Shown: piece after piece, positions 35,510-42,728 of the stretch
Numbering within the stretch: position 1 is the stretch's first letter
Layout of the letters: every line of letters starts with the position of its first letter
DNA from: Bacillota bacterium
Lineage (GTDB): Bacteria; Bacillota; Clostridia; Peptostreptococcales; Anaerovoracaceae
Direction: 5' to 3'
NCBI GenBank assembly: GCA_017436705.1
Contig: JAFSCP010000036.1
Span: forward strand, 124,001-188,000
Length of the DNA stretch: 64,000 bases
Position numbers and translations under genes: made by a program
Notes under the pieces: generated by a model
The model's database searches: none
What the model saw: only the letters and a program-made list of their open reading frames with translations
What the model was told of the DNA's origin: nothing

Positions 35510-35851
35510 CTACGCAAAGCTTACACTTCCCAGAATCACCTGGTTCACCGATGTGCTGAAAGCTTCCCACTGCTTTCTTTCCTCAGCAAGCTGCTCCATT
35601 CCAAGGCCTGTGATGTGATAATATTTTCGCTCACGGCCGCCTTCTGCCTGTTCTTTGTATGAAGAAAGAAGCCCCTTGCTTTCCATCTTGTGGAGAATCG
35701 GGTACAGAGTCCCCTCGTTATACTCAAAAGTTCCGTTGGACCGTTCCTCCAGCGTTCTTATTATTTCGTAGCCGTAATAATCTTTTTCAGCCAGCAGCGA
35801 CAGCACCAGCAGCGCTGAACTTCCGCCTATTAAATTCTTATCTATCTTCAT
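35510..35851 (-). CDS. PadR-family transcriptional regulator
   Basis: 113 residues. The winged-helix signature LLVLSLLAEKDYYGYEIIRTLEERSNGTFEYNEGTLYPILHKMESKGLL is typical of short PadR proteins. PadR regulators often control membrane-stress or transport genes and autoregulate. It overlaps the upstream permease-prefix-domain gene by 4 bp and is followed by its membrane partner, so it probably regulates this operon. Confidence 0.92.
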   Translation of the reverse strand: MKIDKNLIGGSSALLVLSLLAEKDYYGYEIIRTLEERSNGTFEYNEGTLYPILHKMESKGLLSSYKEQAEGGRERKYYHITGLGMEQLAEERKQWEAFSTSVNQVILGSVSFA

Positions 35852-36636
35852 AACTGTGCCTCCTTGGTTTTAATCTCTTCAAATAAACTGCTCAGGTCAA
35901 TTTCACACTTGTCCTGCTGCCCGAACGCATTGTAATTCACATAAAGTCTGGTTTCTGAAAGGTCCGGTATCCATATCAGATAATAATTACGGGTATATTT
36001 TGACAGAACAAAAGGTTCAGATTTATATCCGTTATCTCTATATGAAAAATGCTGTCCATTTTTATTGAGAAACATTATATCGTCATATCCATGATCACTT
36101 AATGTCGCATAAATATCTTTGCCGGACTCACCTTCATGCTCATAAAACAGACCAATATAATACCCTCCGCGGTCACTGCTGTTCTGTAATAATGCAACCT
36201 CTTTGAACCATATACTGTAACTGTCCAAAAACAAACTTTCATCGATTTCAGTTCTGCATAGTGTGTCATTTTTATCTCTCATCGCAAAATGCTCAATAGG
36301 CGTCGGCTCTGTAATCAGATCTTTTACTTCTTTATACACCTGAGGAATCCCGAACCATGCCGCTGCCGCCGCCAGACAGAATGCAAAAATACAGCTGGCA
36401 AACCACACATATCCCACCAAGGGATTATGTGCCTTATTGAGTTCTCTCCCCATCTCCTGCGGGTCGCCCATACGCTGCACGGCCTCAGTTTCAGCAGATT
36501 CCGCCGCCATACCTTTTGCCTGCAGGTACTGACTTCTTTCGTAAATGTGGGTTTCCAGTTCCTTTTCGATTTCCTGGTGATCGTAGTGGAATTTCACTTC
36601 TTTAAGAACAGTTTTTATGTACTTTTCCTTATCCAA
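35848..36636 (-). CDS. Permease-prefix-domain (HAAS-like) membrane protein, copy 2
   Basis: 262 residues from a TTG at 36634-36636, preferred because GAGGTGA lies at a fitting distance and the protein then starts MDKEKYIKTVLKEVKF, exactly like its paralogue (MDKKKYIETVLSEVKF). The N-terminal 75 residues form the helical prefix domain (EIEKELETHIYERSQYLQAKG, AVQRMGDPQEMGRELNKAHNP), then one membrane segment, then an extracytoplasmic part. Such proteins are regularly encoded beside PadR regulators. Function unknown. Confidence 0.75.
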   Translation of the reverse strand: MDKEKYIKTVLKEVKFHYDHQEIEKELETHIYERSQYLQAKGMAAESAETEAVQRMGDPQEMGRELNKAHNPLVGYVWFASCIFAFCLAAAAAWFGIPQVYKEVKDLITEPTPIEHFAMRDKNDTLCRTEIDESLFLDSYSIWFKEVALLQNSSDRGGYYIGLFYEHEGESGKDIYATLSDHGYDDIMFLNKNGQHFSYRDNGYKSEPFVLSKYTRNYYLIWIPDLSETRLYVNYNAFGQQDKCEIDLSSLFEEIKTKEAQL

Positions 36637-36646
36637 ACCCCTCACC

Positions 36647-37456
36647 TCACTCTTTTATCAGTTCCTCCGCAATATTGTCTGTGACATACATTCCGCTGGC
36701 TTTATATTCTTTAAATATCTTCCATTTTCTTTCAAAGTCTTCAGCCAGATTAACAGCCATTCTGACCGCTGCTTCATTACCTAAAAACGCTCTCTGTTGC
36801 TTGCTAAACTCAGATGTTTCAAGCCATTTGACACTGTAATCGCTTTTCTTTACGGAAAAATATAAGTCTTCATTGCTTGTCTGTTCCGGATGATAGTCAA
36901 AGCTCATTCTTATGAGCCACTGGTCATTCTGGTCAGTCCACAAACCTGTAATTTCATCCTCAGGCATTTCATTATCCCAGTATGTAAAATATGATGTATG
37001 ATATGAGTCCTCAGACTCTCTGTCAATATCTGCCCATCTCACTTCATATTCCGGTTCGGTGTACGGTTCAACCTTTTCAATATAAGCATAATATTCAGGC
37101 TTGTACCAAATGAAATCATCCCAGAATGAATCCATCAGCCGGACGTTTAATTGTATAAGGACATCTTCGCCATTTAATGTCGATTTCACATATGCTACTG
37201 AATGATAAAATTCATGGTTTCCATTTCCCAGTTTATCAAAAACAGTATATCTGTCTGTAATTTCATAAGGTGGCAGCATGCCAGCGTCCCTGATAAGGCA
37301 TTTCTCAATTGCCTCATCAAAAGTCCTGCACGGTTTGTCAAATCCGAAAAAAACTCCGAACATGATTAAACACATTCCCGCGATTATAATCAGATTTCTC
37401 ACAACTTTCTGTCCGCGTGTCAGCTGCGGCAATCTGAACTTTCTTTTTTTCTTCAT
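36647..37456 (-). CDS. Membrane-anchored protein of unknown function, copy 1
   Basis: 269 residues. It starts MKKKRKFRLPQLTRGQKVVRN and has one membrane segment (about 21-40). The outside part shares the YEITDRYTVFD / PYDVIADYTFG pattern with the product of 34710-35486. It overlaps the upstream prefix-domain gene by 4 bp. Together the two make the first of two tandem gene pairs. No enzymatic motif was found. Confidence 0.72.
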   Translation of the reverse strand: MKKKRKFRLPQLTRGQKVVRNLIIIAGMCLIMFGVFFGFDKPCRTFDEAIEKCLIRDAGMLPPYEITDRYTVFDKLGNGNHEFYHSVAYVKSTLNGEDVLIQLNVRLMDSFWDDFIWYKPEYYAYIEKVEPYTEPEYEVRWADIDRESEDSYHTSYFTYWDNEMPEDEITGLWTDQNDQWLIRMSFDYHPEQTSNEDLYFSVKKSDYSVKWLETSEFSKQQRAFLGNEAAVRMAVNLAEDFERKWKIFKEYKASGMYVTDNIAEELIKE

Positions 37457-38217
37457 TGTTCACCACGCTCCATTTCATCAAACAGGGCTGACAAGTCTAT
37501 CTGTCCTGTCGCTTTTTGTCCGAAAACATCGAAATCAATATACATAATATCTTCTGAAGTATCATTTATCCAAAAAAGAAAATATTCATCATTAAAAGAA
37601 TAATATGGTTCTTCATATGGCTCCCAGTTCGGTGCATAACTTTTTCTCTGACTGTTTAGAAAGGTATCCGCTTCCACATACCTGTAAAAGTTCTCTCCGG
37701 AATTTCCACGATGTTTATAGAACAATACCAGATAATATCCTCTGGCTTCATTATCTACACTATGTTCGCCACAATAAGCATCTGTAAATTTCACTGAGTA
37801 TCCATCCAGTTCCAGAGTCGAATTGACAGGTGAATGGAAATATTCCTCTCCGTCATAAATCCATTCCAGTTGCTGATGTCTGCCTGGTTCTGAAAGAATA
37901 TCTCTTATTTCAAGTACAGTCCACCAGCCTCCGGCAATTACTGTAGGAACTAATATCAACATGACTATCAGACTTGTAAACTGCCAGAGCCAGCCAATCC
38001 AGGGGTTGTGTGCCTTGTTCATTTCCTGGCCCATTGCCTGCGGGTCGCCCATGCGGCGGACTGCTTCCGCCTCTGCTTCTGCAGCGTCTATGCCTTTTGC
38101 CCGCAGGTATGCGCTGCGTTCAAAGATATGATTTTCAAGTTCCCTGCTGATTTCATCGTGATCGTAGCGGAATTTTACTTCACTAAGAACCGTTTCGATA
38201 TACTTTTTCTTATCCAT
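37453..38217 (-). CDS. Permease-prefix-domain (HAAS-like) membrane protein, copy 1
   Basis: 254 residues. The prefix domain (DEISRELENHIFERSAYLRAKG, AVRRMGDPQAMGQEMNKAHNP) is followed by a membrane segment (about 77-97) and an extracytoplasmic part. Its first 75 residues are very close to those of copy 2, while the remainder has diverged. It is the first gene of the five-gene operon and is transcribed from a consensus promoter. The function is unknown; linkage to PadR suggests envelope stress or peptide response. Confidence 0.75.
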   Translation of the reverse strand: MDKKKYIETVLSEVKFRYDHDEISRELENHIFERSAYLRAKGIDAAEAEAEAVRRMGDPQAMGQEMNKAHNPWIGWLWQFTSLIVMLILVPTVIAGGWWTVLEIRDILSEPGRHQQLEWIYDGEEYFHSPVNSTLELDGYSVKFTDAYCGEHSVDNEARGYYLVLFYKHRGNSGENFYRYVEADTFLNSQRKSYAPNWEPYEEPYYSFNDEYFLFWINDTSEDIMYIDFDVFGQKATGQIDLSALFDEMERGEQ

Positions 38218-38285: not shown

Positions 38286-38314
38286 ATTATACCTCGAGCT
38301 GCGAGGGTTGTCAA
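38286..38314 (-). promoter_or_regulatory. Consensus sigma-A promoter with a dyad in the spacer
   Basis: TTGACA (38309-38314), a 17-bp spacer and TATAAT (38286-38291): a perfect promoter on the minus strand, 70 bp upstream of the operon. The spacer holds CCTCG-N5-CGAGG, an inverted repeat placed exactly where a bound repressor would block RNA polymerase. PadR is the obvious candidate. Confidence 0.85.
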
Positions 38315-38321
38315 TAAAAAA

Positions 38322-38343
38322 GAAACCCTCCCGCGAAGGTTTC
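38322..38343 (-). terminator. Terminator of the STAS gene
   Basis: GAAACC and GGTTTC with a 10-nt GC-rich loop, followed by UUUUUU on the minus strand, about 30 bp after the STAS gene stop. It separates that gene from the prefix-domain operon. Confidence 0.8.
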
Positions 38344-38371
38344 CTGAAAAGCTTTGTATTCATACCAGGCC

Positions 38372-38668
38372 TTATTCAATTGTAAGGATATCAATAAACC
38401 CTGTCACTTCAAAAATTTCATTGATTGTCTCATTAACATTTCTGATAATCATCTTGCCCTGCTTGTTCATCACTTTCTGTGCAGCCAGAAGCACTCGCAG
38501 ACCTGCAGATGAAAGATATTCAAGTGCCGAAAAATCCAGTACAAGCATTTCCACACCATCTATATCCTGTTTTAATTCTGCTTCAAGCTGTGGAGCAGTT
38601 GTCGTGTCCAGACGGCCCTCAATAACCAGATTCAGTTCATTTTCCTTTTTACATTTTTTAATTTCCAT
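38372..38668 (-). CDS. STAS-domain anti-anti-sigma factor (RsbV/SpoIIAA-like)
   Basis: 98 residues. The STAS fold shows EGRLDTTTAPQLEAEL and the phosphorylatable serine in LEYLSSAGLRVLL. In partner switching the unphosphorylated form binds a kinase of the RsbW type and frees its target; a PP2C phosphatase reactivates it. Here the gene is divergent from exactly such a phosphatase and kinase. The STAS protein is therefore their likely substrate. Confidence 0.9.
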   Translation of the reverse strand: MEIKKCKKENELNLVIEGRLDTTTAPQLEAELKQDIDGVEMLVLDFSALEYLSSAGLRVLLAAQKVMNKQGKMIIRNVNETINEIFEVTGFIDILTIE

Positions 38669-38716
38669 AAAGTTTCCTCGCTCCCCGAATATATACAGCC
38701 TTAATATCCTGCTTCA

Positions 38717-38745
38717 ATTATACAGCAAATACAGCGTTTATACAA
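38717..38745 (-). promoter_or_regulatory. Sigma-A promoter for the STAS gene
   Basis: TTGTAT (38740-38745), a 17-bp spacer and TATAAT (38717-38722) on the minus strand, about 50 bp upstream of the start. The divergent phosphatase gene on the plus strand has a TATAAT near 38803 but no good -35. Confidence 0.57.
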
Positions 38746-38837
38746 CACCTTTCAGCATTCAAAAAAAGAAAGTAAAACACTTCCATTGTTTTCTCATGTT
38801 TGATATAATTAAGAAAAAACTTTTCAGAGAGGCAGTT

Positions 38838-40703
38838 ATGAACAGAAACCGTGCAAACAATAAACATGTTCGCATTTCCCAGACTTTCCAGCGCTGGCTT
38901 TTTGTTGTTGTTACTATTGCGTTCCTCTTTACCACAGCGTTTCTGTGGTTCTTTCAGACAAGACTTTCACAGCAGAATGCAATTGAGCTGCTTTCGCTGA
39001 ATATTTCCGATGTGAGACAGGACATCATCGATGCTTCTGATGAAAATCTTCTGGAACGTGCTGCTCTTGTAGCAGAAGAAATAAATAATAACGCTGCCCC
39101 TGACTCTGCTTTCCTTCTGGACATGATTGTAAAATATAATCTGGCAGAAGCAAATATTATTGATTCAGACGGTATAATTACTGCTACAACTTATAAACCT
39201 TTTCTGAATTATGACATGGCAAGCGGCACACAGTCTGCTGAGTTTATGGTTCTCCTTCAGGGACAGACCGAATATGCACAGAGTTATCAGCCTACTTCAT
39301 ACGACCCTCAGATTCTGCGTAAATACGGTGGCGTGGTTCTGGAAGGAGGCGGATTTGTTCAGGTTGGTTACGATTCAGGACGTTTCCAGCGTGATATAGA
39401 CAGTCTTGTTGTGGGACTTACCCGTAATCGTCATGTGGGTGAAGCCGGCAGTATAATTATCGCTGACGAAGATTTCAAAATTGTCAGTGACAGACATGAC
39501 AATGAGAGCCGCGGACTGAGAATTACCGGTCTTACATTTGATCCGGAAACCATTGCTGAGAATGAGCCTTTCACAGCAGAGGTCTACAGCGAATCCTGCT
39601 ACTGCATGTATGTTCATACTGAAGGTTATTACATTATCGCTGTATTGCCGCAGAAAGAAGCCGTTCTGTCCCGTAATGTGTCTGTAGGAATAACAACTGC
39701 CATGGAATTAATAGTTTTTGCAGCCCTGTTCCTGCTGATTTACATACTTATCAAAAAACTTATAGTAGACAATATTCACCGTATCAATCATTCTCTCAGT
39801 GAAATCACAGATGGAAACCTCGATGTTACGGTAGATGTCAGATCCAATGAAGAATTTTCTTCTCTTTCTGACGATATAAACTCCACAGTAGATACGCTGA
39901 AGCGCTATATTGCCGATGCTGCTGCCCGTATTGATGCAGAGCTGGAATTTGCCCGTGCAATACAGCACTCGTCCCTGCCGTCGGTGTTCCCGCCTTATCC
40001 CGGCAGAAAAGAATTTGAACTTTTTGCTTCAATGCGTACTGCTAAAGAAGTTGGCGGTGATTTTTACGATTTTTACCTTATTGATGATAAGACTCTGGCC
40101 TTCCTCATTGCTGATGTTTCCGGCAAAGGTATCCCTGCCGCAATGTTTATGATGCAGTCAAAAACGCTCCTGAAGAGCTGCGCCGAATCGGGCATGAGCG
40201 TTGAAGAAGTCTTCACCCAGGCCAATGAAAAGCTCTGTGAAGGCAACGATGCGGGCATGTTTGTAACTGCATGGATGGGTATTCTTGATATTGATACAGG
40301 TCTTGTAACCTTTGCAAATGCCGGTCATAACCCTCCTCTCATCAGACGCTCAGACGGCAGCTGTGAGTATCTTAAAACACGCCCTGGCTTCGTACTTGCA
40401 GGCATGGAGAGCATACGCTACCGTAAAAATGAACTTCAGCTCATGCCCGGTGACATGCTTTACCTCTATACCGACGGAGTGACTGAAGCTACCGATGCTG
40501 CAAACCAGCTTTATGGCGAGTACAGACTCTTTGACCTTCTCAATAAGCATGGCGAATTACAGCCGCAGCCTTTATGCGAAAATATAATAACTGATGTGGA
40601 TAAATTCACAGGCGAAGCTCCTCAGTTTGACGACATTACAATGTTATGCCTGAAATATTCGGGGCCGCAGAAAGGAGATTCCAATGAAAGAACTGACGAT
40701 TGA
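38838..40703 (+). CDS. Cache-HAMP-PP2C serine phosphatase (RsbU/SpoIIE-like sensor)
   Basis: 621 residues from the ATG at 38838, preceded by GAGAGG; frames extending further upstream have no such site. Membrane segment one is at about 17-37. A Cache-like extracellular sensor domain follows to about 275 (DSDGIITATTYKPF, GGFVQVGYD). Membrane segment two precedes a HAMP linker (INHSLSEITDGNLDVTVDVRS). The C-terminal phosphatase has KEVGGDFYDFYLIDD, VSGKGIPAAMFM and GHNPPLI, all metal-site motifs. It should dephosphorylate the STAS partner when its ligand binds. It overlaps the kinase gene by 20 bp. Confidence 0.92.
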   Translation: MNRNRANNKHVRISQTFQRWLFVVVTIAFLFTTAFLWFFQTRLSQQNAIELLSLNISDVRQDIIDASDENLLERAALVAEEINNNAAPDSAFLLDMIVKYNLAEANIIDSDGIITATTYKPFLNYDMASGTQSAEFMVLLQGQTEYAQSYQPTSYDPQILRKYGGVVLEGGGFVQVGYDSGRFQRDIDSLVVGLTRNRHVGEAGSIIIADEDFKIVSDRHDNESRGLRITGLTFDPETIAENEPFTAEVYSESCYCMYVHTEGYYIIAVLPQKEAVLSRNVSVGITTAMELIVFAALFLLIYILIKKLIVDNIHRINHSLSEITDGNLDVTVDVRSNEEFSSLSDDINSTVDTLKRYIADAAARIDAELEFARAIQHSSLPSVFPPYPGRKEFELFASMRTAKEVGGDFYDFYLIDDKTLAFLIADVSGKGIPAAMFMMQSKTLLKSCAESGMSVEEVFTQANEKLCEGNDAGMFVTAWMGILDIDTGLVTFANAGHNPPLIRRSDGSCEYLKTRPGFVLAGMESIRYRKNELQLMPGDMLYLYTDGVTEATDAANQLYGEYRLFDLLNKHGELQPQPLCENIITDVDKFTGEAPQFDDITMLCLKYSGPQKGDSNERTDD

Positions 40704-41091
40704 TGCCGTCATCGGAAATATACCTGAAGTTACTGCTTTCGTAGACGAACAGCTTGAGGCACTTGATTGTCCCATGAAAGCTCAGATGCAGATTGATATT
40801 GCCATCGACGAGCTCATGAGCAATATTGCCCGTTACGCTTACAATCCGGATGTGGGACCTGCCACAGTCCGTGTAGAAGTTATGGAAGATTCCATGGCAG
40901 TAATTATAACTTTTATTGACAACGGTGTTCCTTATGACCCACTCAGCAATGAAGATCCTGACATTAACCTTTCCGCTGAAGAGCGTGAAATCGGCGGTCT
41001 TGGAATATATATGGTCAGAAAAACCATGGACGAAGTTGTTTACGAATACAAAGACGGACAGAATATCCTCCGGATACGCAAAAATATTTAG
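40684..41091 (+). CDS. RsbW-like serine kinase / anti-sigma factor
   Basis: 135 residues of the GHKL ATPase fold. The N box, IAIDELMSNIARYAY, keeps the catalytic Glu and the Mg-binding Asn. The G1 box is IDNGVPYDP and the G2 box GGLGIYMVRKTMD. It should phosphorylate the STAS protein and bind a partner, which may be a sigma factor or, given the next gene, the transporter. It overlaps the phosphatase gene and is followed by the transporter after 17 bp. Confidence 0.9.
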   Translation: MKELTIDAVIGNIPEVTAFVDEQLEALDCPMKAQMQIDIAIDELMSNIARYAYNPDVGPATVRVEVMEDSMAVIITFIDNGVPYDPLSNEDPDINLSAEEREIGGLGIYMVRKTMDEVVYEYKDGQNILRIRKNI

Positions 41092-41108: not shown

Positions 41109-42728
41109 ATGGCAATGAAACATTACCGCAAAGATTTTACATTAATTCCGGAAAACATCGACTCAGCAGCTGATTTCGCTGATGAAACACTCCAGATGTT
41201 CTCCCTTCCGCGTAAAGAAGTCCTCCGCATCAGGCTTTCACTGGAGGAAATTCTTCTCAGATGGTATGATAATGCTTCAAATCTTAAGGATAAATTTACT
41301 GTGGACATTTCCCGCCGGTTCGGCCGCATTACACTTACTGTTTCATGCAATGGAATGCCTTGCGACCCACTGGCTGCAGAAGATGAAGACGAATCTTTTG
41401 GCAGCGGTGCTCTCGGCCGTGCAATGCTGACAAATCTGGGTCTTTCACCTTCCTGGCAGTATCAGAATGGTTCCAACACCGTATCATTTTCCATAAAGAA
41501 AAAGCAGAAACTCAGCCAGCTCAGTCTCGTGCTCATTGCAGTTGTGTCTGCACTCGTGCTCGGATGGCTGGGACTTCTTCTTCCGGAAGGTCTGAGAACA
41601 ACTATACTTACAACTCTGCTGGACCCTCTTTTCAATACTTTCCTCAGTGTATTTTCATGTATTGTCGGCCCTCTCATGTTCCTTTCAATGGTATGGGGTA
41701 TTGTTAATATCGGCGATACGCGTCAGCTTGGCCGTATCGGAAAAAAACTTCTCGGAAGATATATGATTGTATCAATTATTGTTGGTATAGTATGCATGAT
41801 TGCTGCCGTTTCCTTCTTTAAACCAACGCTCAGCGGCGCGCAGAGCGGGCAGGCAGTACTTCAGTCAGTCATTGAAATGGTTCTGGATATAATTCCGGGC
41901 AATATTGTTGAACCATTCCTTACAGGAAATACTCTGCAGATTCTTTTTATGGGAGCAGTAGTGGGCATTGTGATGATTCTGCTGCGTGACCGCATGCAGA
42001 CACTTACTCAGGTCGTAGAACAGTCAAATGCTGTTGTTCAGGTAATTCTTTCTGCAATCAGCAGTATTACCCCTGGTTTTATCTTCCTTTCGGTACTTCG
42101 CCTGCTTCTTCAGGGGACACTTGCACAGAGTGCAGCAGGACTTATCAGCGTAATACTTCTCAGCGTGGTTCTTTCCGCTGCAGAAATTCTTATTGAAATT
42201 GTTACAATGATGAAACTTGGTGTCTCACCTGTCCAGGCGATGCGTAAACTGAGTTCCACTTTCCTCATTGCACTTACTACGGCATCTTCAGCGGCGGCCT
42301 TCCCGACCATGATTGATACCTGTCACAATAAACTGGGTATTGAAGAAAAGCTCACAAGCTTTGCCCTCCCTTTTGGCAGCGTGGTATTCATGCCTCATGC
42401 AGTAAACCTTTTTATACTTGTTCCTCTTTTTGCAGCCCAGTTATATGGGGTGGAACTTACAGCGGGCAGTATTGTACTGTGCGTAATCAATGCAGTAGTC
42501 CTCTCAGTTGCAGCACCACCTATTCCAGGTGGCGCAATTTCGTGCTATACGCTCATGTTCCTGCAGCTCGGTGTACCGCTTGAAGCAATTTCTCTTGCTG
42601 CTGCAGCAAATGTAGTGCTTGACTTTACTGCAACCTCCGGAAATATTATGGCACTTATGATTCAGACATCCCATGGTGCTTCCAAGCTTGACATGCTCAA
42701 TCATGATATAATCAGAAAAAACAACTGA
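41109..42728 (+). CDS. Dicarboxylate/amino acid:cation symporter with N-terminal GHKL-like domain
   Basis: 539 residues. Residues about 1-130 are an RsbW-like domain: the G1-like CNGMPCDPLAAEDEDE aligns with DNGVPYDPLSNEDPD of the upstream kinase. The domain looks catalytically dead: the N box reads LEEILLRWYDN with Arg in place of Asn, and the G1 Asp is Asn. Residues 135-530 are a DAACS/GltPh-type transporter with eight membrane helices. The re-entrant loop appears as TTASSAAAFPTMIDTC, and PFGSVVFMPHAVN and ISLAAAANVVLDFTATSGNIMALMI are clear symporter segments. Transport of a C4-dicarboxylate or acidic amino acid is inferred. A terminator follows. Confidence 0.88.
   Translation: MAMKHYRKDFTLIPENIDSAADFADETLQMFSLPRKEVLRIRLSLEEILLRWYDNASNLKDKFTVDISRRFGRITLTVSCNGMPCDPLAAEDEDESFGSGALGRAMLTNLGLSPSWQYQNGSNTVSFSIKKKQKLSQLSLVLIAVVSALVLGWLGLLLPEGLRTTILTTLLDPLFNTFLSVFSCIVGPLMFLSMVWGIVNIGDTRQLGRIGKKLLGRYMIVSIIVGIVCMIAAVSFFKPTLSGAQSGQAVLQSVIEMVLDIIPGNIVEPFLTGNTLQILFMGAVVGIVMILLRDRMQTLTQVVEQSNAVVQVILSAISSITPGFIFLSVLRLLLQGTLAQSAAGLISVILLSVVLSAAEILIEIVTMMKLGVSPVQAMRKLSSTFLIALTTASSAAAFPTMIDTCHNKLGIEEKLTSFALPFGSVVFMPHAVNLFILVPLFAAQLYGVELTAGSIVLCVINAVVLSVAAPPIPGGAISCYTLMFLQLGVPLEAISLAAAANVVLDFTATSGNIMALMIQTSHGASKLDMLNHDIIRKNN

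Follow-up and report, generated by a model that had tools for sequence, protein, structure and literature searches.

This locus raises the question of why a membrane transporter should be fused to a domain resembling a partner-switch kinase. The known role of partner switching is mainly to free sigma factors or to tune a few enzymes. The window, the 64,000-nucleotide stretch of contig JAFSCP010000036.1 that we analyzed, derives from a Bacillota bacterium of the Anaerovoracaceae and contains an open reading frame of 539 amino acids (positions 41109-42728, plus strand) preceded by the sequence AGAAAGG, which resembles a ribosome-binding site. The original prediction had read this frame as a DAACS-type symporter carrying a dead switch kinase at its N-terminus, and hence as a possible link between transport and partner switching in which no sigma factor takes part, the STAS protein either gating the transporter or being kept by it from the active kinase. 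The features on which the following analysis relies are:

38320..38345, minus strand: hairpin resembling a terminator, beyond the 3' end of the STAS gene (11-pair stem, then a T-run)
38372..38668, minus strand: STAS-only protein (STAS, E 8.7e-16; ant_ant_sig TIGR00377 above cut-off)
38669..38837, no strand assigned: divergent intergenic region of 169 bp between the STAS gene and the PP2C-kinase-fusion operon (from the gene layout)
38838..40703, plus strand: HAMP and SpoIIE-type PP2C phosphatase (SpoIIE, E 8.7e-55; HAMP, E 2e-4)
40684..41091, plus strand: free switch kinase, RsbW/SpoIIAB-like (HATPase_c_2, E 1.1e-19), its start overlapping the PP2C stop
41109..41508, plus strand: predicted N-terminal pseudo-switch-kinase domain, fusion residues 1-133 (from Pfam, AlphaFold2 fold and family-wide loss of ATP-site residues)
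41509..42728, plus strand: SDF membrane domain of the DAACS/glutamate-transporter fold, without Na+ ligands (from Pfam, AlphaFold2 matches and residue tables)
L249:6669-7757, contig C35, same genome, outside the window: ATPase of a polar-amino-acid ABC importer carrying a putative C-terminal pseudokinase domain

As judged from sequence, the genes flanking the fusion have the expected composition of a partner-switching module, with a STAS protein bearing a phospho-acceptor serine, a kinase with intact motifs and a phosphatase with a SpoIIE-type PP2C domain. The phospho-acceptor motif SSAGLR (Ser53/Ser54) is invariant across 19 STAS proteins from such loci, and the free kinase retains Glu43, Asn47, Asp79 and the GGLG segment, the first three residues each being present in 32 of 32 related kinases from such loci. 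The phosphatase, whose start codon at 38838 was picked by inspecting the list of open reading frames, is probably membrane-anchored. The STAS gene is transcribed divergently from the operon encoding the phosphatase, the kinase and the fusion, and a search of the 169-bp region between them yielded no convincing promoter. A sequence matching the sigma-70 consensus at 12 of 12 positions (TTGACA-17-TATAAT) lies at 38286-38314 on the minus strand, just past the hairpin of the STAS gene, and reads toward the frame at 37453-38217. The latter is one of two paralogous minus-strand frames (35848-36645 and 37453-38217) that are separated by a third gene and have similar starts (KKYI.TVL.EVKF.YDH.EI..ELE.HI.ERS.YL.AKG).

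The N-terminal domain of the fusion protein is related to the free kinase encoded upstream. Pfam detects HATPase_c_2 at residues 14-128 (E 4e-4); at 20.8 bits the match falls short of the curated cut-off of 27.4 bits, and the score stays below this cut-off when the domain is scanned alone (E 2e-5, 24.9 bits). In BLASTP, residues 1-133 align with the kinase at 40684-41091 with 25% identity over 118 amino acids (E 7e-12), and the alignment includes the shared DPL-x2-ED segment (DPLSNEDPD / DPLAAEDED) on which the original prediction had drawn. Profile-profile comparison of 40 fusion N-domains against 21 kinases gave a probability of 97.4 and an E-value of 9e-12, compared to an E-value of 0.48 against STAS as a negative control. 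Because phmmer searches of the domain against PDB sequences returned chance matches only, its homology rests on Pfam, on profile-profile comparison and on structure.

The structural predictions are consistent with these results. The AlphaFold2 model of the isolated N-domain (pLDDT 87, pTM 0.80) finds its top structural matches in the PDB among anti-sigma kinases solved in complex with their STAS antagonists, namely UsfX-RsfB, RsbW-RsbV and SpoIIAB-SpoIIAA, with Z scores between 14.5 and 15 (8ih8, 15.0; 6m37, 14.8; 1th8, 14.5), compared to 10.1 for SiaB and at most 8.3 for the ATPase domains of histidine kinases. The topology of the domain is unchanged in the full-length model (pLDDT 85.7, pTM 0.79). 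Thus, the N-domain is a relative of the switch kinases whose predicted fold is, as anticipated, a GHKL fold like that of anti-sigma kinases, rather than one unrelated to the GHKL ATPases.

The residues expected to operate the ATP site have been lost from this domain, both in the window and throughout the family. The window protein retains the catalytic glutamate (E47) and has Arg51 in place of the N-box asparagine and Cys80 in place of the G1 aspartate, in agreement with the losses originally reported. The N-box asparagine (Mg2+/ATP) is present in 12 of 121 fused domains as opposed to 32 of 32 kinases, the position of the G1 aspartate (DxG), which is Asp in 32 of 32 kinases, is mostly occupied by V, A, L, I, H or Y in the 121 fused domains, and the GGLG lid (G2), found in 30-31 of 32 kinases, is lost from the fused family. 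The catalytic glutamate position holds Glu in 103 of the fused domains and Asp in 14. Other positions are conserved across these 121 domains, including E46 (118), N123 (117), G82 (115), L107 (106), L49 (105), P87 (105), Y118 (101) and P114 (92). Since the fused domain maintains a residue set of its own despite having lost those of the nucleotide site, it is not drifting freely, and the residue pattern indicates that it is a pseudo-enzyme throughout the family, under its own constraint.

The membrane domain is an SDF domain by Pfam (residues 141-518, E 1.3e-55, 189 bits, above cut-off), the full-length model matches GltPh, GltTk and AncInt in Foldseek, indicative of an elevator-transporter fold, and the closest solved sequence is that of Anc-Int (9bgz, E 3.7e-39). 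The assignment to the DAACS family is therefore upheld as regards the fold, whereas the loss of the Na+ ligands casts doubt on the term symporter. In the window protein these ligands are replaced (N310F, D312P and D405L in GltPh numbering). We read the corresponding positions off an alignment to the aspartate-transporter chain 9bgz for 116 fused and 45 unfused SDF proteins. All three ligands (N310, D312 and D405) are absent from 104 of the 116 fused proteins and present in 40 of the 45 unfused ones, and position 311 is Lys in 57 of the fused proteins. R397, the residue that recognizes the side-chain carboxylate of the substrate, is retained in 7 fused proteins. Substrate-side residues partly persist, with S277 found in 100 of 116, S278 in 78, N401 in 73 and D394 in 65. 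In a quick tree of 162 rows, which contains several long branches, 103 of the 104 fused proteins without Na+ ligands, together with one that has lost them in part, form one clade with a support of 100, the unfused proteins make up one side of a branch with a support of 95, and eight fused proteins that retain the Na+ ligands fall on that unfused side. With these ligands and R397 lost, the membrane domain may no longer transport, which would count against transport as the output of the locus. Ligand loss alone does not imply loss of transport, as the paper behind 9bgz (PMC12668577), which defines the Na+ ligands, describes an uncoupled lineage in the Bacillota.

The search for the same architecture recovered 121 distinct genes, a recurrence that makes the fusion neither a chance event nor an assembly artefact. 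The fusion is present in 75 of 350 genomes of the family to which the window belongs, was not seen among the sampled other families of its order, and is scattered over four other families in the sample of the phylum. A scan of contigs from named genomes with a three-sequence alignment returned 57 loci, almost all of them fused and almost all from uncultured gut or rumen Clostridia; Flavonifractor sp. An82 and Lachnospiraceae AD3010 are among the isolates that carry the fusion. The plasmid collection searched gave no match. A longer version of 760 amino acids, with about 220 additional residues before the pseudokinase domain, occurs at L087:6853-9132, L088:5491-7731, L089 and L090. The additional segment, apparently membrane-spanning, matches neither the kinase, STAS and pseudokinase profiles nor any Pfam family.

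The neighborhood of the fusion recurs as well, and neither of the two outcomes that would have refuted the original prediction was observed. A STAS, kinase or PP2C gene lies within 1.5 kb of 38 of 121 fusions as opposed to 3 of 55 unfused or fragmentary SDF genes, the flanks being nearly equal at 2.8 kb per gene for fused and other genes alike (Fisher p 8e-5, computed ignoring relatedness and thus inflated, as related genomes are not independent). The corresponding 4-kb comparison (52/121 versus 3/55) lacks flank matching and is not relied on here. The gene order varies, from STAS-kinase-fusion (L031, L067) to fusion-kinase-STAS-PP2C (L072) and PP2C-fusion-STAS (L076). Some fusion operons also encode proteins that join STAS to an APH-type kinase (PF01636; L074:4344-5936, L076:7886-9475, L099:5210-6385 and similar), a number of them with a further C-terminal switch-kinase domain. 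The 83 of 121 fusions without a partner-switch gene inside 1.5 kb count against a partner-switch function. At the genome level, co-occurrence is nearly obligatory. The STAS subfamily of the window is found in 74 of 75 genomes with the fusion, the sole exception being 59% complete, versus 77 of 275 genomes of the family without it; the kinase subfamily is found in 72 of 75 versus 82 of 275. Counted by genus, by hand from tables, the STAS subfamily is present in 20 of 20 genera with the fusion versus 23 of 72 without.

The same domain recurs on transporters of other folds, frequently within the same operons. Many fusions are adjoined by polar-amino-acid ABC ATPases of 362-386 amino acids that are extended at the C-terminus by about 125 residues. 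The extension is also present on neighboring all-in-one SBP-permease-ATPase proteins of some 1130-1140 amino acids. Most of these extensions are missed by Pfam alone; in hhalign, 13 of them match the SDF N-domain with an E-value of 2e-10 and the kinases with an E-value of 3e-11, and they too are devoid of the N-box asparagine and the G1 aspartate. A HATPase_c_2-like domain also forms the C-terminus of MATE transporters near STAS, kinase or PP2C genes at L035, L217, L221 and L257, the domain in L221 exceeding the Pfam cut-off. Seven such MATE extensions gave E-values of 1e-10 to the SDF N-domain and 1e-15 to the kinases in profile comparison, and a few of them retain the N-box asparagine. Searching the genome of the window with the ABC-extension profile, which contains no sequence from that genome, returned one match (E 2.7e-24), the 362-aa ABC ATPase listed above, which shares the contig of the fusion, lies about 91 kb upstream of it and is flanked by a permease gene and an SBP_bac_3-like gene. 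Two stretches from genomes of the same genus without the SDF fusion (L253, L254) combine PP2C and kinase genes with an extended ABC ATPase and a weakly matching MATE, and that of L254 includes a STAS gene as well. No such transporter was present in the stretches retrieved for other STAS loci without an SDF fusion (e.g., L255, L258 and L268). At L260 and L262, the PP2C-kinase and STAS genes lie beside what seem, from the starts of the frames only, to be branched-chain amino-acid ABC genes, in which the extension is absent. The recurrence of the domain on SDF, ABC and MATE proteins is the strongest hint, at the sequence level, that it serves as an adaptor for the STAS switch.

A sigma factor encoded together with the module was considered as its output, but the locus contains no sigma-factor gene, and the closest one on that contig is about 145 kb away. 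The genome has 16 matches to sigma-70 region 2, none of them near the locus, and three STAS proteins above cut-off: the STAS protein of the window, SpoIIAA, which accompanies SpoIIAB and sigma F, and a frame of 584 amino acids that contains a STAS domain and probably encodes a SulP-type transporter. On another contig of this genome (L243:4144-5282, contig C3), a SigB-like sigma gene lies next to gyrase genes and to a degenerate RsbW-like protein in which the N-box asparagine is Met, with no STAS gene nearby. The STAS protein of the window may in reality act on this SigB-like factor, which counts against transport as its output.

Taken together, the fold, the neighborhood, the co-occurrence and the absence of a sigma factor at the locus provide good support, at the genomic level, for the proposed link between transport and partner switching through a dead kinase domain. 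We somewhat favor, as a complete mechanism, a partner-switching module that has membrane transport as its output in place of a sigma factor. In such a module, the sensor PP2C phosphatase and the free switch kinase would control whether a dedicated STAS protein is phosphorylated; when unphosphorylated, this protein would dock on the dead switch-kinase domain of the transporter and alter its activity, and upon phosphorylation it would release the pseudokinase domain. We infer the binding of STAS, its dependence on phosphorylation and the sign of its effect, and the SDF family and the ABC neighbors suggest, by analogy, amino acids as the substrate. As the docking domain is common to polar-amino-acid ABC ATPases and MATE proteins, one STAS protein could set several transporters together. 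With a little less assurance, and at not quite even chances, we envisage that a single STAS protein, switched by PP2C and kinase, docks on the same adaptor of SDF, ABC ATPase and MATE proteins in an undescribed regulatory layer widespread in gut Clostridia, through which nutrient import and efflux would be set together, post-translationally and without a sigma factor.

The main competing explanation, which we regard as fairly unlikely, is that the SDF domain is no longer a transporter and has become a sensor (transceptor) for an amino acid outside the cell or in the cytoplasm; binding of this ligand would then alter the hold of the pseudokinase domain on STAS and thereby feed into the partner switch. 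There is a parallel in the SLC5-type modules that feed into histidine kinases such as CbrA. The loss of all three Na+ ligands in 104 of 116 fused proteins while substrate-side residues partly persist, as well as the apparently membrane-spanning addition of about 220 residues in the 760-aa version, would suit such a sensor. Against it, the ancestor of the Bacillota Ext-Int lineage has documented uncoupled transport without Na+ (PMC12668577), and the presence of the domain on complete ABC importers, each comprising a binding protein, a permease and an ATPase, is easier to reconcile with an output than with a sensor.

Two further explanations appear distinctly improbable. The pseudokinase domain might act as a sink that withdraws STAS from an anti-sigma factor elsewhere, such that the abundance or state of the transporter would set sigma activity, a scheme for which the SigB-like gene of this genome, adjoining a degenerate RsbW without a STAS of its own, offers a candidate partner. 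There is, however, no sigma factor near the locus of the window, and the subfamily of the window STAS, which is one of only three STAS proteins above cut-off in the genome, follows the fusion and a cognate intact kinase in its distribution. We assign an equally low probability to a structural or assembly domain, involved in folding, oligomerization or the binding of another ligand and devoid of any present link to STAS. The many copies that do not lie beside STAS or kinase genes and the loss of the ATP-site residues are compatible with this explanation, which nonetheless can hardly account for co-occurrence with one STAS subfamily in 74 of 75 genomes or for the presence of the domain on three unrelated transporter folds.

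Compared to known systems, the locus resembles RsbU/RsbV/RsbW and SpoIIE/SpoIIAA/SpoIIAB in its PP2C phosphatase, its STAS protein with a conserved serine, its GHKL switch kinase and the matching fold of the N-domain, and differs from them in lacking a sigma factor and in placing an additional dead kinase domain on a transporter. With SiaA/SiaB/SiaC/SiaD, in which SiaD is a diguanylate cyclase, and with SypA/SypE it shares a STAS protein that is switched by kinase and phosphatase and acts on a non-sigma output; this output is an enzyme or a biofilm pathway in those systems and would here be a transporter contacted through its pseudokinase domain. SulP/SLC26 proteins with a STAS domain are also transporters physically joined to a partner-switch domain, but they carry the STAS side and the fusion carries the kinase side. 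Regulatory domains located C-terminally on the ATPase are known from ABC importers such as MetN (NIL/ACT) and OpuA (CBS), and the extended ABC ATPases share this arrangement, their extension differing in being a switch-kinase-like domain common to SDF and MATE proteins. The SDF fold is shared with GltPh, GltTk and the uncoupled Anc-Int aspartate transporter (PMC12668577), from which the fusion is set apart by the lack of the Na+ ligands and R397 and by the N-terminal pseudokinase domain; the terms 'HATPase' and 'anti-sigma' are absent from the text of that paper. The open-licence literature searched gave no account of an SDF, ABC or MATE protein joined to this switch-kinase-like domain, which, given this scope, is weak evidence of novelty, and since non-sigma partner switches are already known the fusion system does not constitute a new category.

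If the preferred mechanism, with membrane transport as the output of the switch, is correct, a bacterium would be switching its membrane transporters directly with the parts of a partner switch, the transporter having acquired an inactive kinase copy on which to dock STAS. This would provide a physiological setting for SDF proteins without sodium sites, and it would account for many transporters of gut bacteria that carry an unassigned domain of 130 residues.
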